From an uncultured Agrococcus sp. (lineage in GTDB: Bacteria > Actinomycetota > Actinomycetes > Actinomycetales > Microbacteriaceae), in contig NZ_CAMEFJ010000007.1 of the NCBI RefSeq assembly GCF_945915485.1, forward strand, positions 1 to 62,980: a stretch of DNA of 62,980 bases, written 5' to 3'. The notes beneath the pieces were generated by a model, which had not been told where the DNA came from, did not search any database, and worked only from the letters and a program-made list of their open reading frames with translations. This document shows, piece by piece, positions 5,949-52,231 of the stretch (position 1 is the stretch's first letter; the number at the start of each line of letters is the position of its first letter). A program made the translations under genes and the position numbers.

Positions 5949-7655
5949 ATGAGCAATGAAGGCACTGTCGGCATGACCGGCCCTGTCGATCCGGCGAGTA
6001 CGGATGCGTGGGCAGCGCTTACGTCGCACGCGAGCGCCTTCGAGCCCGATCTGCGAGCATGGTTCGAACGTGATCCGGATCGTGCCGACCGTCTCACGAA
6101 GTCCGCTGCGGGTCTCCGTGTCGATGTGTCGAAGAATCTCGTGGCCGATGAGACGCTCGGCCTGCTGCAGCAACTTGCGGCTGAGACCGATGTCCTCGGC
6201 AAGCGCGACGCGATGCTGAGGGGTGAGCGCATCAATACGACCGAGGACCGTGCGGTGCTGCACACAGCGCTGCGTCGTCCCGAGGGTTCCGATCCGGCGC
6301 TGATCGTGGACGGTCAGGATGTGGATGCCGACGTCCGTGAGGTGCTGGGTCGCGTGTATGCGTTTGCCGAGCGGGTGCGATCCGGTGCGTGGACGGGCGC
6401 CACGGGCAAGCGCGTCGCGACGGTCGTGAATATCGGCATCGGCGGTTCTGATCTCGGCCCGGTCATGGCCTACGAAGCGCTGCGCCCCTACGTTGCCGAG
6501 GGGCTCGAATGCCGTTTCATCTCGAACATCGACCCGACCGATCTCGCCGAGAAGACCCGCGATCTCGACCCTGAGACGACCCTGTTCATCATCGCGTCGA
6601 AGACGTTCGGCACGCTCGAGACGTTGACGAACGCGCGCCTAGCGCGTGAGTGGCTCTGGCGGCAGCTGATCGCCCTCGGTGCCATCGAAGACGATGACGA
6701 AGGTCGGTCCGAAGCGGTGGCGAAGCACTTCGTCGCCGTGTCGACGGCGCTCGATCGAGTGGCCGAATTCGGCATCGACACCGAGAATGCGTTCGGATTC
6801 TGGGATTGGGTCGGTGGCCGCTACTCGCTCGATTCTGCGATCGGCACGTCGCTCGCCATCGCTATCGGACCGGAGAGCTTCGAGGATTTCCTGGCCGGCT
6901 TCCACGCGATGGACGAGCATTTCGCGACGGCGCCTCCTGAGGACAACGTCCCGCTCCTGATGGGGCTGCTGAACGTCTGGTACGCGAACTTCCTGGGCGC
7001 GCACACGCACGCTGTACTGCCGTATTCGCAGTACCTCCACCGATTCCCGGCGTATCTGCAGCAGCTGACGATGGAGTCGAACGGCAAGTCGGTGCGCAGC
7101 GACGGCGTGCCCGTCACCGTCGATACCGGTGAGGTGTTCTGGGGCGAGCCCGGCACGAACGGACAGCACGCGTTCTACCAGCTCATCCACCAGGGCACCC
7201 GACTCGTGCCGGCAGACTTCATCGCGTTCGCGAATCCGGCGCATCCGCTCGACGACGGTGGGCAGGACGTGCACGATCTGTTCATGGCGAACTTCTTCGC
7301 GCAGACGAAAGCGCTCGCATTCGGCAAGACTGCCGAGGAGGTGCGCGAGGAGGGCACGCAGGAGCACATCGTCAGCGCTCGGGTTTTCTCGGGCAATCGT
7401 CCGACCACCTCGATTCTCGCGTCGCGGCTGACCCCGTCGGTGCTCGGGCAGCTGATCGCACTGTACGAGCACATCACGTTCGTACAGGGCGCCATATGGG
7501 GTATCGACTCGTTCGACCAGTGGGGCGTTGAGCTCGGCAAGCAGCTCGCGTTGCAGATCGCACCAGCGCTGAACGGCGATCGGGATGCGCTCGCGAAGCA
7601 GGACGCATCCACCCGCGCAGCCATCGAGCACTATCTGGCCGAGCGCAGTCGTTAG
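5949..7655 (+). CDS. pgi: Glucose-6-phosphate isomerase
   Basis: A 568-residue cytosolic enzyme that interconverts glucose-6-phosphate and fructose-6-phosphate. Family signatures are present: [11 protein letters not shown] near residue 161, [13 protein letters not shown] near 218, the [10 protein letters not shown] phosphate/active-site segment near 375 and [18 protein letters not shown] near 397. Length matches the long bacterial form. The start ATG 5949 follows GGGAGAG; a second in-frame ATG at 5982 is possible but lacks a better ribosome site. Confidence 0.97.
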
Positions 7656-7783
7656 CGTGCACGGCACGCCGGCAGGTCCGCGGCGCGGCCGTCGACGGTC
7701 AGACGCGCTGCGTTCACTATCGCGGCTCGCTCAATGCCGTCGCGATCAAGTTCCGGTGCCGAACTGCTTGGAAATTGGCGGAA

Positions 7784-7840
7784 CGCACTGAGCTGCTTCC
7801 TTTTCGGGTGTTCTCACCAAAAAGGAAGCAGTTCAGTGCG
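7784..7840. terminator. Hairpin between convergent pgi and ABC exporter genes
   Basis: Arms 7784-7804 and 7820-7840 are 21 bases long with one G-T-type mismatch and a 15-base loop. The arm ends CCTTTT / AAAAGG, so either direction of transcription gives a stem followed or flanked by a T run. It sits between two convergent genes and most likely ends both transcripts. The upstream string GAACTGCTT (7761-7769) is also complementary to the right arm and could form an alternative stem. GTGCCGAACTGCTTGG just before resembles the start of the CCATACATT repeat family. Confidence 0.65.
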
Positions 7841-7864
7841 CGAAAGGCTCGTTTTCTCGCTGCC

Positions 7865-8644
7865 CTACCGCACCGGCGTACGGGGGAAGCGCCACGCGGC
7901 GAGCACGAGTGCGACCAGGATGATGCCGAGGCACCAGAGGATGGACACGAGCGGCTGTCCTTCTCCTCCGACCAGGGCCGACCTGATCGTCTCGATGATG
8001 GGAGTCACCGGTTGGTACTCGGCAACGGGAGCGATCCAGTCGGGCATCGTCTCGATCGGTACGAATGCGCTCGAGAGATAGGGCAGGAACAGGATGATGA
8101 ATCCGTAACCGTTCGCAGCCTCAGGGCTGCCTGCGATCAGCCCGATAACAGCGAACACGCTGGTGACCGCGAGGATCCAGAGCGTGACGATGCCGAGTGC
8201 CGCGATCCAGCCCCCGAGGTCGGCGTCCGGCCGGAAGCCGATCGCGAAGGCGACGCCGATCACGACCGCCGTCGCAACCAGATTGCGCACGACACTTGCG
8301 ATCACGTGTCCGACGATCGATGTTGATGCGACGAACGGCATGGTTCGATAGCGAAGCATGGCGCCCGCCGTCATGTCGCGACTGACGGAGACTGCGGTCG
8401 AGGATGCGCCGAAGCCTGCGCAGGTCAGGATGATGCCGGGCACGACGTAGTCGATGTAGCGGCCGTCGCCCTGAATCGCACCTCCGAACACGACGGTGAA
8501 CATGAGCATCAGCATCACGGGTAGCGCAATGGCCATGAGCAGGCCCTCGCCGTCCCGAATGCTGTGCAGGAGGCTGCGCCGGATGAATACGCCGCTTGAG
8601 CTCAGTGTCGATACACCAGTCGCTGGCGTCGTTGTCGTGGTCAT
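7865..8644 (-). CDS. ABC-2 type exporter permease
   Basis: A 259-residue membrane protein of the DrrB/ABC-2 type. Six hydrophobic segments are visible starting with LLMAIALPVMLMLMFTVVFGG, and the C-terminal half holds NGYGFIILFLPYLSSAFVP, typical of this family. It overlaps the ATPase gene by four bases and pairs with it to form a drug or lipid exporter. Its genetic linkage to a divergent TetR regulator suggests inducible efflux. The substrate cannot be told from sequence. Confidence 0.87.
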   Translation of the reverse strand: MTTTTTPATGVSTLSSSGVFIRRSLLHSIRDGEGLLMAIALPVMLMLMFTVVFGGAIQGDGRYIDYVVPGIILTCAGFGASSTAVSVSRDMTAGAMLRYRTMPFVASTSIVGHVIASVVRNLVATAVVIGVAFAIGFRPDADLGGWIAALGIVTLWILAVTSVFAVIGLIAGSPEAANGYGFIILFLPYLSSAFVPIETMPDWIAPVAEYQPVTPIIETIRSALVGGEGQPLVSILWCLGIILVALVLAAWRFPRTPVR

Positions 8645-9507
8645 GCCGCTACCTCCTCGATCTGTGTGAGTTTCGCGAATGCGTCTTCAAGGCTGGGGGA
8701 GCGCAGCTCTACACGAGCGCCGTTGTCTCTCTGCATGCGTTCGAGGGCCGCTGCGACGGATGCCCGGGTGCCGTCGGTTTCGACGCGCTCCAGCACGCTG
8801 CCCGCTGTGTCGACGAGTACGACCGATTGGCCGCCCACGAGCGCGGTGAGTTCGCCGACCGTTCCGTCGGCCACGATTCCACCGCGATGCAGCACCGTGA
8901 CGCGGTCGGCGAGCGCTTCGGCTTCGTCGAGCGTCTGCGTCGTCAGAAGAACTGTCGTTCCGTCGATCGCGAGCTGCCGGATGTCGTCCCAGACTCGCGC
9001 GCGGCTCACAGGGTCCAGGCCGGTCGTCGGTTCGTCGAGAATCAGCACTTTTGCGGGCGCGATCAGGCTCGCTGCAAGGTCGAGGCGGCGGCGCATCCCG
9101 CCCGAATATGTTCGAACGGCTTTACGCCCCGCTGCGGCGAGATCCAGTCGTTCGAGCAGTTCGTCCGCTCGGTTCGTCGCGGTGCGCCCGAGCCCGAGGA
9201 GCTTGCCGAGCATGGCGAGATTCTCGCGCCCGGTCAGCAGCTCGTCGAGCGAGGTTGCCTGGCCGGTGACTCTGACCAAGGAGCGCACGGTGCTCGCGTC
9301 CCGAACCACGTCGTGGCCCAGTACGCGAGCCGTCCCGGCGTCCGGGCGGATGAGCGTCGTCAGGATCGAGACCAGCGTCGTCTTACCGGCACCGTTCGGG
9401 CCCAGCAGCGCAACGACTCCGCCGTCGATCGTCATGTTCAGATTGTTCAGTACGCGCTGGTGCCGGAAGGACTTCTGCAGCGCTCGAACTTCGATCACCG
9501 GTGTCAC
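8641..9507 (-). CDS. ABC exporter ATP-binding protein (DrrA-like)
   Basis: A 288-residue ATPase using the GTG start at 9507, chosen because GGAGGT lies seven bases upstream. The longer open frame to 9657 would cross the operator region and reads as low-complexity Tyr/Cys/Thr sequence. Walker A is GPNGAGKT, the signature is YSGGMRRRLDLA, Walker B is VLILDEPTTGLDP, and the C-terminal DrrA-type extension (ALERMQRDNGARVELRSPSLEDAFAKLT) is present. It energises the adjacent permease and is likely repressed by the divergent TetR protein. Confidence 0.92.
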   Translation of the reverse strand: MTPVIEVRALQKSFRHQRVLNNLNMTIDGGVVALLGPNGAGKTTLVSILTTLIRPDAGTARVLGHDVVRDASTVRSLVRVTGQATSLDELLTGRENLAMLGKLLGLGRTATNRADELLERLDLAAAGRKAVRTYSGGMRRRLDLAASLIAPAKVLILDEPTTGLDPVSRARVWDDIRQLAIDGTTVLLTTQTLDEAEALADRVTVLHRGGIVADGTVGELTALVGGQSVVLVDTAGSVLERVETDGTRASVAAALERMQRDNGARVELRSPSLEDAFAKLTQIEEVAA

Positions 9508-44838: not shown

Positions 44839-45507
44839 ATGATGCTCACCAGTGAAGCGCTGTTCCTGTTACTGACCACGGATGCGGGGAAGCACGAGCC
44901 CTGGATCTCTTATCGCAAGGAAGCCCTGCGCGGTGGCCTCCTCGCCGATCTCGTCGTGGCGAACCTCGTCGAATTCGCGCACGAGAAAGACCCGCACGTG
45001 ACTCTCCTCACGGGCGCCACGGAAGCCGAGCATCCCGTGCTCCGCTACGGCGTGCAGGCCCTGGGTGAGAACGAGCCGGATCGCGCGTCCAATCTCGTGC
45101 AGTCGGGCTGGTTCGACCCCGAGGAGACGATAGCGATGGTGCTCGCGGATCAGGGCATCATTACCGTCGAAACGAAGAAGTTCCTGTTCTTCAGTTCTGA
45201 ACAGTACCCGATGTGCGATCCGGAGCCCGAACGGCGGTTGCGCTCCACGCTCGCGGAAGTGCTCGCCGACACGAGATCGCCTACCGCGCAGGACGTCATC
45301 ATTCTCGCCATCCTGCAGGAGATGTCTGCGGTCAGGACGATTCTCAAGCGGGAGACCGAAGGGTTCGGTCCGTTCAAGCTGAATAAACGGCTCGATGAGA
45401 TTCGGCAGCGGGAACTCGACGACGACACCGTGACCGACGCGGTTCGGGAGGCGATTCAGACGATGGCCGCCATCATGACCTCGGTCGTCATCACCCCTAT
45501 GCACTGA
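44839..45507 (+). CDS. GPP34 (GOLPH3-like) domain protein
   Basis: A 222-residue protein related to the eukaryotic Golgi phosphoprotein 3 fold. MLTSEALFLLLTTDAGK, LRGGLLADLVVANLVEF, IKLN-type segment FGPFKLNKRLDEIRQR and DAVREAIQTMAAIMTSVVI fit the family. Bacterial members are common in actinobacteria and may bind phosphoinositide-like lipids or membranes; role unknown. ATG 44839 follows GAGGAGGTGCG. Confidence 0.85.
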   Translation: MMLTSEALFLLLTTDAGKHEPWISYRKEALRGGLLADLVVANLVEFAHEKDPHVTLLTGATEAEHPVLRYGVQALGENEPDRASNLVQSGWFDPEETIAMVLADQGIITVETKKFLFFSSEQYPMCDPEPERRLRSTLAEVLADTRSPTAQDVIILAILQEMSAVRTILKRETEGFGPFKLNKRLDEIRQRELDDDTVTDAVREAIQTMAAIMTSVVITPMH

Positions 45508-45528: not shown

Positions 45529-46515
45529 TCACGATATGCATCCAGCCAGCAACGCCGCGAGATACGGCCAGTGGATGCCGGCAATCGCGGCGGCGAGGCT
45601 CAGCGCGTAAGCGGCGACGCCGGTCGCGAGGAGCGTGCTGTTCCTCGGCGGTGGACGCCCGACGAGCTGGCGAACACGTTCGGAACCGGATCCCGCGACC
45701 GACGCGTGAAGCACGGCGGAGTTCGAGCGCAGAGTGGGGGATGGGCTGCCCAGCTTGAGCAGCGCTCCGGCGAGTGCCGGAGATCCCGCGTCGCGTTTCG
45801 CCTCCTGATCGGCGGCGATCTCGAGGTAGAGCGGGATGGCATCGCGGATCGCGGCGATCAGCGGAACCCAGGTGAAGAATCGGGTTGCGCCGAACAGCAG
45901 CGTGAGAACAAGGTGGTGATGCTGTTGCACGTGCGCCCGCTCATGCCCCAGTACCGCTCGTAGCTCGTCACGACTCAGGCGATCGCACGCGCCGCTGGAT
46001 ACGACAACGCCTCCTCGGCGGCGTGGGAGCGCGTACGCGTAAGGGATTTCGTCGGGCACGACCCGTACGGAATGACCGAACAGGATCTTCTGTTCTGCCT
46101 GCTCCCCTAGCCCTGCAGCGGAACTGAGTCGAGATGTTCGCACTAGTGCGAACTCCATTGCCATACCCACGAGCACGGCCGCCGCACCCAGCGCTGGGAA
46201 AGCGAGTGGAAGAATGGCCGGGATCCCGAGCGACACTGCGCTGTCGCCGAACGGTGTCGCCGCACTCAAACATTGGCCGCAGACATCCGCAGCCGGTTGC
46301 GGAAGCCACGATGGGCCGGTACTGATCCACGCGATGACGGGCCCGAGGGTGAAGAGTGTTGTCATCCACGCAAGAGCGCCGGCTGCCAGGGCGAAGACGG
46401 CGGTTCTGGGAATCGTCGCTAGTGCCGGCGCGGCGCGCCGCAGCAGTCCTGGCCCCCAGGTCGCGGCGACGAAGAGGATGCTCGCGAGCAGCAGTGTCAG
46501 CCCGGCCGCAGACAT
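45529..46515 (-). CDS. M56 family membrane metallopeptidase (BlaR1/MecR1-like sensor)
   Basis: A 328-residue membrane protein with three or four membrane segments in the first half and the zinc motif LGHERAHVQQHH (HExxH) near residue 217. LEIAADQEAKRDAG near 258 supplies the third ligand. Unlike BlaR1 it lacks a large C-terminal penicillin-binding sensor domain. It lies two bases after the BlaI-type gene and probably cleaves that repressor when the membrane domain senses a signal. Confidence 0.9.
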   Translation of the reverse strand: MSAAGLTLLLASILFVAATWGPGLLRRAAPALATIPRTAVFALAAGALAWMTTLFTLGPVIAWISTGPSWLPQPAADVCGQCLSAATPFGDSAVSLGIPAILPLAFPALGAAAVLVGMAMEFALVRTSRLSSAAGLGEQAEQKILFGHSVRVVPDEIPYAYALPRRRGGVVVSSGACDRLSRDELRAVLGHERAHVQQHHHLVLTLLFGATRFFTWVPLIAAIRDAIPLYLEIAADQEAKRDAGSPALAGALLKLGSPSPTLRSNSAVLHASVAGSGSERVRQLVGRPPPRNSTLLATGVAAYALSLAAAIAGIHWPYLAALLAGCIS

Positions 46516-46517
46516 CG

Positions 46518-46910
46518 TTACTTGCCTTCGTCGAGCAGGAAGCCTCGCAGCAACTGCTGATCGGCCTCGGACATGCCTTCCACGAAGTGCAGCATTGAGG
46601 TCTTTCGGTTGCCGCTGGCATCGAGTGCTTGTCTCATCGCACGTGCGGCGTGCTCCTCGCGGCTCACACAAGCGCCGTACAGGGTGGAGTGGCCGTCTTT
46701 TCCTGTGCACACGAGTTCCTTCTTGCGCAGATTGCCCAGGACAGTAGCGATGGTCGTGTAGGCCGGTTCTCCGGGGAGGCGGTTGATGATTTCCCGCACC
46801 GTCATGGGTTCACCGCTCCAGAGGAGATCCATGACCTGCAACTCGAGAGCGCCGAGGCGAACTGGTTTGCTCTCCGTTTCGTCATGCGAGTGCCTCACTA
46901 CGGCTGTCAT
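46518..46910 (-). CDS. BlaI/MecI/CopY family repressor
   Basis: A 130-residue winged-helix repressor. LGALELQVMDLLWSGEPMTVREIINRL and PAYTTIATVLGNLRKKELVCTGKDGHSTLY (about 18-75) are the DNA-binding domain. The C-terminal half is the dimerisation region, where M56 proteases cut in known systems. It overlaps the upstream membrane gene by four bases, and twin dyads precede the operon. Confidence 0.93.
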   Translation of the reverse strand: MTAVVRHSHDETESKPVRLGALELQVMDLLWSGEPMTVREIINRLPGEPAYTTIATVLGNLRKKELVCTGKDGHSTLYGACVSREEHAARAMRQALDASGNRKTSMLHFVEGMSEADQQLLRGFLLDEGK

Positions 46911-47494
46911 GATGTGGACTCTATCGCTGAAGCTCGCGCTTTACGACTCTGAGCGGGGACGGAACAGGCCACCTGCCCTTTGAGGCGCCACGCGAGTGCG
47001 ACGTAGGTCAGGAGCAGAGCTGCTGCAGCCAGCCAGGGTTGCACGGGAGCGAACCAGGTGATCGCTCCCGAGTATCCCAGCGCGAGCAGGGCGATTTTGT
47101 TGCAGACGGGGCAGCCGACCGCGAACCAGGTGAGAAGACCTCCCGCGATTCCCATGCGCGCACTGCGTCGGGCAACGGGGCTCTCCGCATCCGCGGCTGC
47201 TCGACCTTCTTCGCTCTTCGCTGGACCACTGTCACGGGGGCGTACGTAGGTTGCTGTTAATAGCCCGGCGCCGACGGAAGTGAGAACCCACACGGGATAG
47301 TTCCACCAGACCGTCTCGATGTCTCGTGCGAACAGCGGATTCGGGATCAGTACGGTAGCGATACCGACGAGCAGGGCGAATCCCAGGGCTACGGCGGCGG
47401 TGATCCCGAATTGCCGCGGCCCCCACGCGCGAAGTGCACGCGCTGAAAGCAGCAGGTTCGAGCCGGTTCGTCGAAGGATGCGTCGCGGGTTCAT
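46907..47494 (-). CDS. Membrane protein with GCPVC motif, first gene of the BlaI operon
   Basis: About 195 residues from ATG 47494, which follows GGAGAGG; ATG 47506 is possible. Four or five membrane segments. The motif TWFAVGCPVCNKIALLALG near 125 places a CxxC pair in or at the membrane, reminiscent of thiol carriers or metal-binding membrane proteins. It is co-transcribed with a repressor and sensor protease and divergent from a thiol-redox operon, so a redox role is plausible. Confidence 0.82.
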   Translation of the reverse strand: MNPRRILRRTGSNLLLSARALRAWGPRQFGITAAVALGFALLVGIATVLIPNPLFARDIETVWWNYPVWVLTSVGAGLLTATYVRPRDSGPAKSEEGRAAADAESPVARRSARMGIAGGLLTWFAVGCPVCNKIALLALGYSGAITWFAPVQPWLAAAALLLTYVALAWRLKGQVACSVPAQSRKARASAIESTS

Positions 47495-47511
47495 CGGCCT
47501 CTCCATTGTGT

Positions 47512-47543
47512 ACTATGTTGCATAGTTAACTATCCAGCATAGT
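47512..47543. promoter_or_regulatory. Twin BlaI-type operators in the redox intergenic region
   Basis: ACTATGTTGCATAGT (47512-47526) and ACTATCCAGCATAGT (47529-47543) are two 15-base dyads of form ACTAT-N5-ATAGT, 17 bases apart. On the minus strand TTGACT (47541-47546) and TATGCA (47519-47524) make a promoter with 16-base spacing. On the plus strand TTGCAT (47518-47523) and TAGTCA (47540-47545) do the same. Both promoters are covered by both operators, so one repressor can silence both arms. Confidence 0.82.
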
Positions 47544-47591
47544 CAATCGAAGCGCAAGGCCAGCCGAGAGGGGGAGCGCGTCCCACCGCGC

Positions 47592-47978
47592 GTGACCAGA
47601 ATGCAGACGATCGAAGTCACCAACGAGAATCTCGAAACGACAATCAACGCAGGAGGCATCGTCCTGCTCGACTTCTGGGCGGCGTGGTGCGGACCGTGCC
47701 GCGCTTTCGCTCCCGTGTTCGAGCGAGCTGCCGAATCGCACACGGATATTGTGTTCGGCAAGATCGACACGGAAGCCCAGCAAGAACTCGCTGCCGGCTT
47801 CGGGATCACTTCGATCCCTACCCTCATGGCTTTCCGCGACGGTATCGGCGTCTTCTCTCAGCCGGGGGCGCTCCCTGAGACCGGGCTCGAACAGCTCATC
47901 GACGCGGTCCGGCAGCTCGACATGAACGAGGTCCGGAAGCAGATGGAATCGCAGAGTGCGGAGAGTTCAGGAGTATGA
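47592..47978 (+). CDS. Thioredoxin
   Basis: A 128-residue thioredoxin with the active site FWAAWCGPCRAF near residue 37 and the cis-proline region GITSIPTLMAF near 78. It has no signal peptide, so it is cytosolic. A C-terminal extension of about 20 residues follows the fold. GTG 47592 is used; ATG 47601 is equally possible and neither has a strong ribosome site. It overlaps the next gene by four bases and probably feeds electrons to the CcdA-like protein. Confidence 0.92.
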   Translation: MTRMQTIEVTNENLETTINAGGIVLLDFWAAWCGPCRAFAPVFERAAESHTDIVFGKIDTEAQQELAAGFGITSIPTLMAFRDGIGVFSQPGALPETGLEQLIDAVRQLDMNEVRKQMESQSAESSGV

Positions 47979-48727
47979 CGAGACAGAATGCCAGGGCCTC
48001 CCGTACGCGGAGGAGCACGCGTCTTCCCGGCTGGTTGCTGCCTTCCGTAATAGGTGTGCTCGCGGCAACGCTGATCGTGGCTTCGTTCGTGCTGAGCGGG
48101 GACGGAACAGACAGTGCGCAGCCGGAGGAACATGCCCCCGATCAGCCGGGTCCGACCGAGGTGCAGCAACCCGAATCCGATTTGACGGTCTTCGAGACGC
48201 GTTCAGAAGCCGACATATTCGCAGTGGGCCCCGTGGACGCGGACGTTGCTATGGTCGTCTTCTCCGACTTCCAATGCCCGTATTGCGCACGGTGGCATCA
48301 GGACACACTGCCGACGATGATGCAGTACGTCGACGAAGGGAAGCTGCGTATAGAATTCCGTGACCTCGCCATATTCGGTGACGAATCGGAGTATGCGGTG
48401 CAGGCGATATTCGCGGCCGCGCAGCAAGACGCACTAATGGAGTACCAGCACGCACTGTTTCCGAACGGAGAAACGCGACAAGAGTCAGATCTGAGCTTTG
48501 AGGCACTTATCGCGCTTGCCGGTGAACTCGGCCTTGACGAGCAGCAATTCGCGAGCGATCTGGAATCGGAAACGGCACGGGACGTTGTAGACGAACACGG
48601 GGCCTTCGCCGCGAGCCTCGGCGTGTATTCAACCCCCGCATTCATCATCGGCGGCGAGCCGGTGCTCGGCGCGCAGCCCACCGATGTGTTCGTCGACGCG
48701 GTGGAGCAGGCCCTCCAGGCTGCTTAG
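47975..48727 (+). CDS. Membrane-anchored DsbA-like thiol oxidoreductase
   Basis: A 250-residue protein with one N-terminal membrane segment (LLPSVIGVLAATLIVASFVL, about 21-41), a Pro/Glu-rich linker and a DsbA/thioredoxin-4 domain. The active site is FSDFQCPYCARWH near 98, with cis-proline YSTPAFIIGG near 218. It probably acts outside the membrane in disulfide formation or reduction. ATG 47975 overlaps the thioredoxin stop. Confidence 0.92.
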   Translation: MTRQNARASRTRRSTRLPGWLLPSVIGVLAATLIVASFVLSGDGTDSAQPEEHAPDQPGPTEVQQPESDLTVFETRSEADIFAVGPVDADVAMVVFSDFQCPYCARWHQDTLPTMMQYVDEGKLRIEFRDLAIFGDESEYAVQAIFAAAQQDALMEYQHALFPNGETRQESDLSFEALIALAGELGLDEQQFASDLESETARDVVDEHGAFAASLGVYSTPAFIIGGEPVLGAQPTDVFVDAVEQALQAA

Positions 48728-48731
48728 CTCA

Positions 48732-49559
48732 ATGGAAATCGGTCTGTTCAGTGCATTCATCGGAGGCGCGCTCGCGCTGCTGAGTCCTTGTGCGGCGCTG
48801 CTCCTGCCCGCGTTCTTTGCGGCGTCGATAGGCAAGGGGTCCCGGCTTATCCTGCACGGAGGCGTGTTCTTCGTCGGTACGTTGTTGATACTCGTGCCGC
48901 TGGGTCTCGGCGTCGGGGCCGTAGGAGCCTTGTTCACGCAGTTCAGAGGCTGGCTCATCGTCGGCACCGCAGTCATTCTCGTCGGGCTCGGAACACTTCA
49001 GCTGTTCGGGCTCGGGTTCGATCCGTCGAAGGCGCTCCCGGGAGGCGCCTCGATGCAGGAGCGCGCATCCGCGAGCAAGGGTTTGGTGAAAACGCTGCTG
49101 CTCGGAGCCTCGGGCGGCGTGGCCGGGTTCTGCGTCGGGCCCATCCTCGGTGCCGTGCTCACGTTTGCCGCGACGAGCGGCAACGCTTTTACGGGCGCAT
49201 TGGTCATGACCGTCTACGGAGCGGGAATGGTTGTCCCGCTCGTGGCGATCGCAATCGGATGGAACCGCTTGGGCGCCAGGGGCCGCCGTATGCTTCGGGG
49301 CCGAACTTTTCGTGCTCTCGGCCGAGAGTGGCACACGACTTCGGTTATCACCGGCCTCCTCCTGATCGTCGTCGGCGTAGTGTTCTGGCTCACGAACGGT
49401 TTCATCGCTGTGCCTCAGCTTGTTCCGTCGGATGTGCAGGTGTGGCTGCAGAACGGCGCTTCCATGCTGGCTAATCCTGTTGTAGATGCCGTTGTGATAT
49501 TGGCACTCGCCTCGCTTGCTGTCGCTGCCTGGTATGTCGTGAGGCGGCGGCGCCAGTGA
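48732..49559 (+). CDS. CcdA-like transmembrane electron carrier
   Basis: A 275-residue membrane protein of the DsbD-gamma/CcdA family. Conserved cysteines lie in ALLSPCAALLLPAF near 20 and GVAGFCVGPILGAVL near 132, each followed by a family proline. Seven or more membrane segments. The family moves electrons from cytosolic thioredoxin to extracytoplasmic thiol proteins, which fits both neighbours. ATG 48732 is five bases after the previous stop and the end overlaps the next gene. Confidence 0.91.
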   Translation: MEIGLFSAFIGGALALLSPCAALLLPAFFAASIGKGSRLILHGGVFFVGTLLILVPLGLGVGAVGALFTQFRGWLIVGTAVILVGLGTLQLFGLGFDPSKALPGGASMQERASASKGLVKTLLLGASGGVAGFCVGPILGAVLTFAATSGNAFTGALVMTVYGAGMVVPLVAIAIGWNRLGARGRRMLRGRTFRALGREWHTTSVITGLLLIVVGVVFWLTNGFIAVPQLVPSDVQVWLQNGASMLANPVVDAVVILALASLAVAAWYVVRRRRQ

Positions 49560-50704
49560 GACGAGCCATTGCTGGTGCCGCACTGTGTCTTATGCTCGTG
49601 GGATGCACGAGCGACGACGTCTCGACTGCGGAGCCCGTCTCGGTTGCTTCGCCTCTGTCGCAGACGGATACGAGCGCGCTACTCCTGCCAACACCCTATG
49701 AGGATCGAGAATTCGTAACACCCGGGTGGAGTCTCGAGCCCCTCCACGCCGATGGCGTGTACTTGGCCGCAACTCCGGGTGAAGCGGCGCTGGAATTCAC
49801 CGCCGTCGACGAGTTCGGTGAGGTGCTCTGGACGGCCGAGCGTCCGCTCAGCTGTTCTGGATTTACTCTCACCGTCGATGCCGAGGGGCGGAGTCTCGCC
49901 ATTCTCACGGATCTCACGTCCTCTTCCACTGCCGTGGCGCAGACCACGGCAAGTGCCTACGACCTGCATACGGGTGAGCGCGTTTGGGGGCCAGTGGACG
50001 TGCCCGGTCCGTACCGCGGCCCAGGAGCGGTGTTCGCGTACGCGCCGAAGAGCGTGATGGGAGAGAGCGGCCCGAGGCTCGCGTTGGATCCCACAACCGG
50101 AGAAACGGCGTACGACGAGGAAACCGGGCGGGCAACCGTGGTAGGCGAATACAGCGGCACGTTGCTTGTCGCCGAAGACCGCGAGTTGATTGCGACCGAT
50201 GCGAATGGGGAGGAGTTGTGGCGTAGCGAAGGCGCAGAACGCTGGGTTCCGAGTGTGCCCGGTACGTACGAGCACGCGCGACTGGATGGCCGGTACGCCC
50301 TCGTGGCCACAGCATCCGGAGGTGCGTCGCTCATTGAGCTCGCAACGGGCGAGATCAAGGGCGAGGGCCTGCGGGATGCAGCGTTCGACATTGCGTCCGG
50401 CACTTTGGTGATGCACGGAGGCTCCGGTCTCACCGCGGTAGATGCCGATGGCAATGAACTCTGGCAGATGACAGTGGGAGAAGACGTCGAAATTGCAGGC
50501 CTTGGCGACGTCTTCCTGTACCTGCTCGAAGGTGGCTCGCTTCGAGTGCACAACGTGATTACGGGAGCGCATGCGCAAGCCTACCCGGAAGGTGATGGTC
50601 GCATCGTGTACCCCGTCGCTGTCACCGACAGCGGTGCCGCGCTACTGCTTGACGGGGGAGCGTACCTTCTGGCTACGGCGCCGCGTGGCATCGGCTCGCC
50701 TTGA
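49556..50704 (+). CDS. Lipoprotein with beta-propeller (PQQ-like) repeats
   Basis: A 382-residue lipoprotein. Signal GAALCLMLVGC gives the lipobox LVGC (Cys near 17). The rest shows PQQ/WD-like blades (DEFGEVLWTAERPL, DLHTGERVWGPVDV, ATDANGEELWRSEG, DADGNELWQMTVG), each with a GE-W motif, predicting a beta-propeller. GTG 49556 overlaps the CcdA stop. It may be the extracellular target, sensor or scaffold of the redox operon. Only a few cysteines are present. Confidence 0.82.
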   Translation: MRRAIAGAALCLMLVGCTSDDVSTAEPVSVASPLSQTDTSALLLPTPYEDREFVTPGWSLEPLHADGVYLAATPGEAALEFTAVDEFGEVLWTAERPLSCSGFTLTVDAEGRSLAILTDLTSSSTAVAQTTASAYDLHTGERVWGPVDVPGPYRGPGAVFAYAPKSVMGESGPRLALDPTTGETAYDEETGRATVVGEYSGTLLVAEDRELIATDANGEELWRSEGAERWVPSVPGTYEHARLDGRYALVATASGGASLIELATGEIKGEGLRDAAFDIASGTLVMHGGSGLTAVDADGNELWQMTVGEDVEIAGLGDVFLYLLEGGSLRVHNVITGAHAQAYPEGDGRIVYPVAVTDSGAALLLDGGAYLLATAPRGIGSP

Positions 50705-50744: not shown

Positions 50745-50923
50745 ATTTCGGTGGAGAAGCGTCGCCACTTTGCGAGGTTCAGTAGCGCCGGGCTGAATAT
50801 GCCGTGAAGATGGAGCCGATCCTCACACTTCACGGACGAAGCTGCCGGATGCGGCTCAGTGAGCGAAACGCTTGCTAGTCGACGGTGGTGCAGCACGTGA
50901 ACCATGCACCTGATTGGAGCACC

Positions 50924-52231
50924 ATGGTCGACGTCGCCCAAACCGAGAACGCCAAGAAGAAACCGCAAATGGTGCGCACCGCCGTCGTTGTCGGCACCGC
51001 ACTCGAGCATTACGACTTCTTCATCTACGGCACCGCTGCTGCGCTCGTGTTCAACCAGCAGTACTTCGCAAGCGAAGATCCGCTCGTGTCGTCTCTTGCG
51101 GCCTTCGCGACTTTCGCGGTCGGGTTTATCGCCCGTCCGCTCGGCGCCGTGTTCTTCGGGCATCTGGGCGACACGATCGGTCGTCGCAACACGCTGATCA
51201 TCACGCTGGTCGTGATCGGCATCTCCACCGGTCTCATCGGTATCGTGCCGACGTTCGCTGCGATCGGCATATGGGCGCCCATCGCGCTCGTCGTACTGCG
51301 GTTCCTGCAGGGGCTCTCGTTCGGTGGTGAGTGGGCAGGTGCCGTCACGCTGGCAACCGAGCACGCGCCACCCGGTAAGAAGGGGCTGTACGCCAGCCTC
51401 CCGCAACTCGGGTCGCCGATCGGCAACATCACGAGTTCCGGTGCCTTCCTCCTCCTCGCGTTCATGCCCGCCGAAACGTTCGATGCGTGGGGATGGCGCA
51501 TCCCGTTCCTGCTTGCGTTCCCGCTTCTCGGTGTAGCGCTGTGGGTGCGCACGCTCGTCGACGAGTCGCCCGAGTTCAAGAAGGTCGCGGCGAAGGACCA
51601 GGTGAAGAAGGTTCCTGCCCTGGAGGTGCTCAAGCATTCTCCTGGCCGCATGATGACTGCAGCGGCTCTCGCCCTGGTCACGATCGGCGGTTTCTTCCTC
51701 GTCACGACCTTCGCCATCTCGTACGGCACGAACACGGTCGGGCTGCCCTCGAACGTGATGCTCACCGCGACCATGTCAGCAGCGATTCTGCAGATAGTGA
51801 CGGTACTCGTTACGGGATACTTCTCCGACTCGGTCAACCCGGTGAAACTTGCCGTGTGGGGATGCATAATCTCACTGGTCGTGTCGTTCCCCGGCTTCTA
51901 CATGCTCTCAACGGGCATCGAGTGGCTTGCGGTCTTCGCGGTCATTCTCATGGTGCAGCCGATGGCCGTTACCTATGCGGTGACCGGCGTGATCCTGCCC
52001 CGACTGTTCACCGCCGACATCCGATACTCGGGCGTTGCCCTCGGTTTCAACATCGCGGGCATGATCGGTGGCTTCGTGCCCATGATCGCAACCTCGCTGC
52101 TCATCGCTTTCGATTCCAGCTGGCTGCCCATCGGTGGCTTCCTCTTCCTCATCAGCGCGATCTCACTCGCGGGAGCACTGATCTCCGGTGTACTGGTGAA
52201 GACGACGAAGAAGCTCGACGAGATCGTCTAG
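50924..52231 (+). CDS. MHS-family major facilitator (metabolite:H+ symporter)
   Basis: About 435 residues from ATG 50924, which follows GGAGCACC; an upstream in-frame start at 50885 is less likely. Twelve membrane segments. ALEHYDFFIYGTAAALVF, FFGHLGDTIGRRNTLI and LRFLQGLSFGGEWAGAVTLATEHAP are the signatures of the MHS family (shikimate, alpha-ketoglutarate and proline/betaine carriers). It is probably the uptake arm of the nearby SDR and amidohydrolase genes. Confidence 0.93.
   Translation: MVDVAQTENAKKKPQMVRTAVVVGTALEHYDFFIYGTAAALVFNQQYFASEDPLVSSLAAFATFAVGFIARPLGAVFFGHLGDTIGRRNTLIITLVVIGISTGLIGIVPTFAAIGIWAPIALVVLRFLQGLSFGGEWAGAVTLATEHAPPGKKGLYASLPQLGSPIGNITSSGAFLLLAFMPAETFDAWGWRIPFLLAFPLLGVALWVRTLVDESPEFKKVAAKDQVKKVPALEVLKHSPGRMMTAAALALVTIGGFFLVTTFAISYGTNTVGLPSNVMLTATMSAAILQIVTVLVTGYFSDSVNPVKLAVWGCIISLVVSFPGFYMLSTGIEWLAVFAVILMVQPMAVTYAVTGVILPRLFTADIRYSGVALGFNIAGMIGGFVPMIATSLLIAFDSSWLPIGGFLFLISAISLAGALISGVLVKTTKKLDEIV

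Follow-up and report, generated by a model that had tools for sequence, protein, structure and literature searches.

A predicted BlaI regulon of extracytoplasmic thiol-redox operons in Agrococcus, with a candidate thiol sensor in its membrane protease

Results

A repressor-protease operon and a thiol-redox operon diverge from tandem palindromes

We analyzed a window of 62,980 nucleotides (contig NZ_CAMEFJ010000007.1, positions 1 to 62,980, assembly GCF_945915485.1) from an uncultured Agrococcus sp., in which a BlaI-type repressor and an M56-type membrane protease are encoded opposite a set of thiol-redox genes. A first-pass annotation had placed seven genes here in two divergent operons, and this layout was confirmed by the open reading frames (ORFs), their tight junctions and Pfam matches. 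All seven ORFs were found at 45529-50704 as two divergent, tightly packed operons, with 4-bp overlaps at the GCPVC/BlaI, thioredoxin/DsbA and CcdA/propeller junctions, spacers of 2 bp (BlaI/M56) and 4 bp (DsbA/CcdA), and a gap between the operons at 47507-47591. The two putative operators in this gap, and a CGQC motif in the protease, had been overlooked in that annotation. The features are as follows.

45529-46515, minus strand: membrane zinc protease of M56 type, 328 aa counted from the likely start; HERAH at 191-195, C79-G-Q-C82 between transmembrane helices 2 and 3 (TM2 and TM3), C326 near the C-terminus, no penicillin sensor
46518-46910, minus strand: winged-helix repressor of the BlaI/MecI/CopY family, 130 aa; Penicillinase_R (PF03965) 82.7 bits (cut-off 22.6)
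46907-47506, minus strand: GCPVC membrane protein of 199 aa without an assigned family; GCP-x-CNK and Cys181 are invariant
47512-47526, no strand: putative operator 1, ACTATGTTGCATAGT; palindrome ACTAT-N5-ATAGT
47529-47543, no strand: putative operator 2, ACTATCCAGCATAGT; its start 17 bp from that of operator 1
47592-47978, plus strand: thioredoxin, WCGPC; Pfam thioredoxin 85.3 bits; by eye without signal peptide
47975-48727, plus strand: DsbA-like oxidoreductase with CPYC active site; Thioredoxin_4 92.9 bits; N-terminal membrane anchor by eye
48732-49559, plus strand: CcdA/DsbD_TM-type thiol-electron carrier; DsbD_TM 44.7 bits; two Cys (SPC, FC-x-GP)
49556-50704, plus strand: propeller (PQQ_2/BamB-like) protein; PQQ_2 47.9 bits; lipobox-like start LVGC by eye

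The families were as first guessed, with two corrections: the protease scores above the Pfam cut-off for M48 (45.9 bits, cut-off 20.3) and below that for M56 (PF05569; 26.7 bits, cut-off 31), and the GCPVC protein has no family. All 21 members of our protease profile A1 match M48 and 18 of them match M56 (expectation value E <= 0.01). The CcdA assignment is supported by a DsbD_TM score above the cut-off of 27.1 and by two membrane cysteines. Among solved structures, the repressor is closest to 2g9w_A (E 6.3e-14), which we take to be Rv1846c, the BlaI of Mycobacterium tuberculosis, while the best relatives of the DsbA-like protein are 7unn_A (E 2.5e-32) and 4pwo_A, labelled 'DsbA' (E 3.2e-32).

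Operator pairs precede DsbA and CcdA genes in the host and in other genomes

The two 15-bp palindromes are the only ACTAT-N5-ATAGT-type sites in the window (two matches with at most one mismatch, 0.08 expected). The host genome assembly (2.8 Mb, 86% complete) holds five perfect sites, namely the window pair, a second pair on contig C67 and one lone site, which adjoins transposase-like ORFs. The C67 pair (C67:846-877) has the same 17-bp step, is unlinked to the window and stands in front of an intact second DsbA-CcdA operon. Opposite that operon a GCPVC gene survives as fragments in two frames (C67:386-837, locus L056), apparently broken, and the left end of the contig is 0.4 kb past this remnant; C67 thus appears to hold a second regulon member whose other (GCPVC) arm has decayed. 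The second BlaI-M56 pair of the host (C6:42057-42983, L107) has no CxxC in the protease loop and is accompanied by a different site, TTCTAC-N5-GTAGAA, present twice, 40 bp apart. Because the sites differ, we infer that within the host genome ACTAT-N5-ATAGT is the site of the window BlaI.

We scanned 297 genomes of the host's order with an M56 profile and with a paired-operator pattern allowing up to 3 mismatches. The profile matched in 129 genomes, 20 of which, the host included, carry a separate high-scoring class (E <= 6e-68, next best 2e-53), here called the redox class. The paired operator was found in 14 of the 297 genomes, all of them within these 20 and none among the other 277 (Fisher p 1e-19, uncorrected for kinship), and a reversed-pattern control matched in 2 of 297. 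The six class members without a pair match have single sites or a step of 16 or 19 bp. In genome G124, a perfect pair, found blind, lies about 45 kb from the CxxC protease and directly before a DsbA gene that is divergent from CcdA-DsbA. The other BlaI-M56 of that genome (L185:5275-6506), 13 kb from the unlinked pair and without a loop CxxC, is a less likely owner of it, because its own site has another form, TACTAC-N5-GTAGTA; BlaI paralogues within one genome seem to differ in their sites. Two ORFs flank this unlinked DsbA/CcdA cluster of G124 (L160:3346-4044, 6940-9084); we take one to be ArsR-rhodanese-like and the opposite one to encode a CtaG/CopD-like membrane protein.

The operator was found again in Leucobacter, Promicromonospora, Isoptericola, Citricoccus, Corynebacterium (three copies) and Gordonia (L036, with a 20-bp step). 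It also stands in front of separate DsbA-CcdA operons of Leucobacter (L007-L010, L012), of a second DsbA-propeller operon in L017 and, as a single site, of a propeller gene in L009. Across 40 loci, a set that includes the whole window as one locus and two loci (L056, L160) found via the operator, relaxed-form sites numbered 82, against 14.6 in base-shuffled sequence. At least one such site occurs in 39 of the 40 loci, and close neighbouring sites are spaced by 17 bp (23 cases), 16 bp (4), 20 bp (3) or 19 bp (1). The divergent gene order, for whose recurrence the first-pass annotation had suggested searching actinobacterial genomes, was likewise found again at other actinobacterial loci, so it is more than chance.

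BlaI could in principle control only itself and the protease, next to a redox operon that is adjacent by inheritance and unregulated. The CxxC proteases may have a single origin (see below), in which case conserved synteny could be inherited, and the intergenic region is common to both operons, so that one operator need serve only one side. However, DsbA/CcdA genes at a distance from the CxxC protease (C67, G124) have operator pairs in front of them too, as do separate operons in Leucobacter, and we consider this explanation very improbable. Comparison of these sequences instead points to a likely BlaI regulon of extracytoplasmic thiol-redox operons, which is well supported because operator pairs track the M56 class and the unlinked pairs precede DsbA/CcdA genes. 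The earlier claim that the BlaI-M56 pair controls a thiol-redox gene set draws support from the same shared operator and unlinked copies, and from the conserved synteny.

The genes flanking the two operons encode, by library scans, a GPP34-domain protein (44839-45507) and a major facilitator superfamily (MFS) metabolite/H+ symporter (50885-52231); the window scan gave no operator match in front of either.

A core of four genes, usually with the propeller and GCPVC proteins

In a survey of 19 redox loci, BlaI, M56, DsbA and CcdA were present at all 19, the propeller protein at 18, a clear GCPVC protein at 16 and thioredoxin at 1, so that the core is DsbA, CcdA, BlaI and M56, usually accompanied by propeller and GCPVC proteins. 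The "complete path for electrons" described in the first-pass annotation is therefore complete as a gene set in the window, but thioredoxin is no regular part of it; outside the survey, thioredoxin also occurs at Leucobacter loci L008, L009, L010 and L012. Active-site motifs are kept, with two Cys in CcdA, WCGPC in thioredoxin and one CxxC in the DsbA-like relatives, mostly CPFC, where the window has CPYC.

The GCPVC protein belongs to a membrane family with invariant cysteines (GCP-x-CNK and a later Cys in 47 aligned relatives); by eye, its gene may in fact begin at the ATG at 47494. A genome scan for GCPVC gave 50 loci, from which the profiles were built. Within the fetched stretches, some of them short, BlaI was found at 23 of 50 loci and BlaI with DsbA and CcdA at 17, while 27 showed no BlaI; L011 adds one more case to the 17, its CcdA being a stub at a contig end. 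Among the 19 surveyed loci, GCPVC is missing at L093 and L102 and weak at L098 (32 bits). These gaps, together with the GCPVC loci showing no BlaI, argue against the suggestion that the GCPVC protein is the signal.

We considered whether the circuit could be a switch for thiophilic metals, in which the loop CxxC and C-terminal Cys of the protease bind Cu(I), Hg or similar and activate it, and DsbA, CcdA and GCPVC repair or export the damage. The CxxC and the third Cys could form a metal site, and among the weaker solved relatives of DsbA are proteins of copper or metal resistance and of suppression of copper sensitivity (6nen, 6mhh, 4gxz). The GCPVC family is weakly MerT-like (PF02411): 10 of 47 members match at E <= 1, the best of them with E 7.7e-5 and 23.1 bits, below the cut-off of 32.9, and the window protein gives no MerT match. 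Near L009, L017, L024, L053, L094 and L103 lie ORFs that we take to encode a CsoR/CstR-type repressor, a persulfide-dioxygenase-like metallo-beta-lactamase fold or a TauE-like exporter; the CsoR/CstR-like ORFs would fit a metal signal, and such neighbours may also point to reactive sulfur. The window BlaI gives a weak CopY match (34.7 bits, cut-off 121.95) and shares a superfamily with the CopY/TcrY copper repressors, from which it differs in this low score and in having a protease partner; moreover, in 22 of the 37 BlaI proteins of the CxxC-protease class there is no Cys from the LGxLE motif onward. This absence favours the protease over BlaI as the general sensor. A metal switch is weakened by the missing or weak GCPVC at 3 of 19 loci and by ORF clusters from 39 loci (antisense aside), in which the sole further family in more than 8 loci was a generic ABC ATPase (18 of 39), the clusters being unnamed by domain and the largest possibly hiding families. 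On balance we regard it as unlikely.

A CxxC in the protease loop marks the redox-linked class

The protease keeps its zinc motif: all 21 aligned proteins have H191, E192, H195 and E232. That it lacks the penicillin-binding sensor of BlaR1, as first annotated, was borne out by a Pfam scan, which found no such domain in the 328-aa protein, and by its length, since it ends just after the last modelled helix (291-323). Its CGQC (residues 79-82) is placed between TM2 and TM3. Among 103 M56 proteins compared, a TM2-TM3 loop CxxC occurs in 37, all 37 of which also have a C-terminal Cys, and a CxxC elsewhere in the protein occurs in 2. DsbA and CcdA are found near 35 of the 37 CxxC proteases, the other two being cut by contig ends, against 3 of 66 without CxxC. 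The protease's own cysteines are a more direct candidate for the signal input than GCPVC or the state of CcdA, which had been proposed.

The same cysteines could form a structural disulfide in a BlaR1-type switch for envelope or cell-wall stress, in which the protease answers wall damage, perhaps through the propeller protein. The kinds of protein are those of BlaR1-BlaI, and a C-terminal Cys is also present in 29 of 66 non-CxxC proteases. In M. tuberculosis BlaR is sensorless too, yet blaI-blaR are reported to be up with amoxicillin and clavulanate (PMC5473688). On the other hand, both unlinked operator pairs precede DsbA/CcdA genes, none of the seven locus proteins is a beta-lactamase or a penicillin-binding protein by Pfam, and among the 103 proteins only the redox-linked class has the loop CxxC. 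We rate an envelope switch as improbable, somewhat below the metal switch.

Several observations weigh against a protease-based thiol sensor or its regulon. A single change accounts for the CxxC proteases on the tree (support 68/100, and in 66% of bootstrap trees); with CxxC possibly arisen once, the counts are not independent and the Fisher p overstates the association. Of the 21 rows in profile A1, 16 carry CxxC, which biases its scores towards that class. Three proteases without CxxC (L016, L163, L164) also adjoin DsbA and CcdA, weak CcdA matches lie beside seven others (L109, L114, L165, L166, L171, L173, L174) and weak DsbA matches beside L131 and L175, and at L052 CcdA is about 9 kb off; because non-CxxC proteases also stand near DsbA/CcdA genes, the redox link needs no CxxC. 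Besides the C-terminal Cys noted above, 37 of the 66 non-CxxC proteins have at least one loop-region Cys, and with cysteines so common, some of those in the class may have a structural role. The protease loop is modelled at low confidence (predicted local distance difference test, pLDDT, about 50). The window BlaI has two Cys, so it may itself sense thiols here, and in Cellulomonas and Actinotalea (L013, L015, L018) GCPVC, BlaI, DsbA, CcdA and operator-like sites are kept without a nearby M56, with no close M56 elsewhere in these genomes. The BlaI proteins of these three loci carry C-P-D-[ED]-L-C (C-x4-C), and a similar pair occurs in M56-bearing L024 and L103. Finally, a sigma-70 scan gave no promoter-like site, and L040 showed no operator match, a contig end cutting off its GCPVC promoter.

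The proteases of L016, L163 and L164 are of Mycobacterium type with a single loop Cys and form a second redox-linked BlaI-M56 lineage.

Discussion

In sequence terms, the locus appears to be a conserved regulatory circuit, with the protease loop as candidate sensor in place of the one first guessed. Our favoured reading, which we put forward with moderate confidence, is that BlaI and a sensorless M56 protease switch a regulon of extracytoplasmic thiol-redox operons, with the loop cysteines as sensor and a thioredoxin-CcdA-DsbA chain as feedback. BlaI, on the tandem operators, would repress both divergent operons and the unlinked DsbA-CcdA operon on C67. The protease would sense through its loop CxxC and C-terminal Cys, the loop being the presumed counterpart of extracellular loop 1 (EL1) of BlaR1. 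In BlaR1, EL1 and helix 3 pass the signal and both termini lie outside, as described in one report (PMC9834060); by analogy, the protease cysteines would lie outside the cell. Oxidised, metal-bound or otherwise modified loop thiols would let the loop move helix 3, making the cytoplasmic zinc site active, and BlaI would be cleaved, again on the BlaR1 model. We favour oxidation over reduction, metal or persulfide as the trigger because the induced set can supply reductant. Given the functions of the families, the induced chain would carry electrons outward, repair wrong disulfides and re-reduce the loop, closing a negative feedback, with the GCPVC and propeller proteins as accessory parts.

Like BlaR1-BlaI of Staphylococcus aureus and MecR1-MecI, the system has a protease with the HExxH...E zinc motif, but it has no penicillin-binding sensor domain and carries a CxxC in its loop, and its predicted targets are DsbA/CcdA genes instead of beta-lactamase or PBP2a. 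With the DsbD/CcdA reductive pathways and Scs systems it shares a CcdA-like carrier and an extracytoplasmic thioredoxin-fold protein; we know of no BlaI-M56 control of either. BlaI (Rv1846c) and BlaR (Rv1845c, compared by description) of M. tuberculosis are likewise actinobacterial, with a protease that has no sensor domain. A connection between BlaI-BlaR and redox has already been published for that species: WhiB4, once oxidised in the cytosol, is reported to repress blaR and blaC, and the reported BlaI targets include blaC, cytochrome bd and ATP synthase (PMC5473688). On that account the redox input is a separate cytosolic protein, unlike the protease loop proposed here. Neither the loop CxxC nor the DsbA/CcdA regulon was found in the literature searched.

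More broadly, and tentatively, at somewhat less than even confidence, this M56 class may sense the thiol state outside the cell through its EL1 cysteines and signal by BlaI proteolysis, a response of Gram-positive actinobacteria to extracytoplasmic disulfide stress in which CcdA-DsbA reduce their own sensor; in the few protease-less lineages, BlaI carries C-x4-C, as if sensing had moved into the cell. For M. tuberculosis, the same report calls the response to beta-lactams unexplained and points to WhiB4 and internal redox balance (PMC5473688). For sensorless BlaR-like proteases, the class described here gives a concrete candidate input, a pair of cysteines in the loop whose BlaR1 counterpart moves. 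If true, actinobacteria would have a dedicated regulator for extracytoplasmic thiol chemistry, and the BlaI-M56 module would be able to take new inputs through change of one loop.

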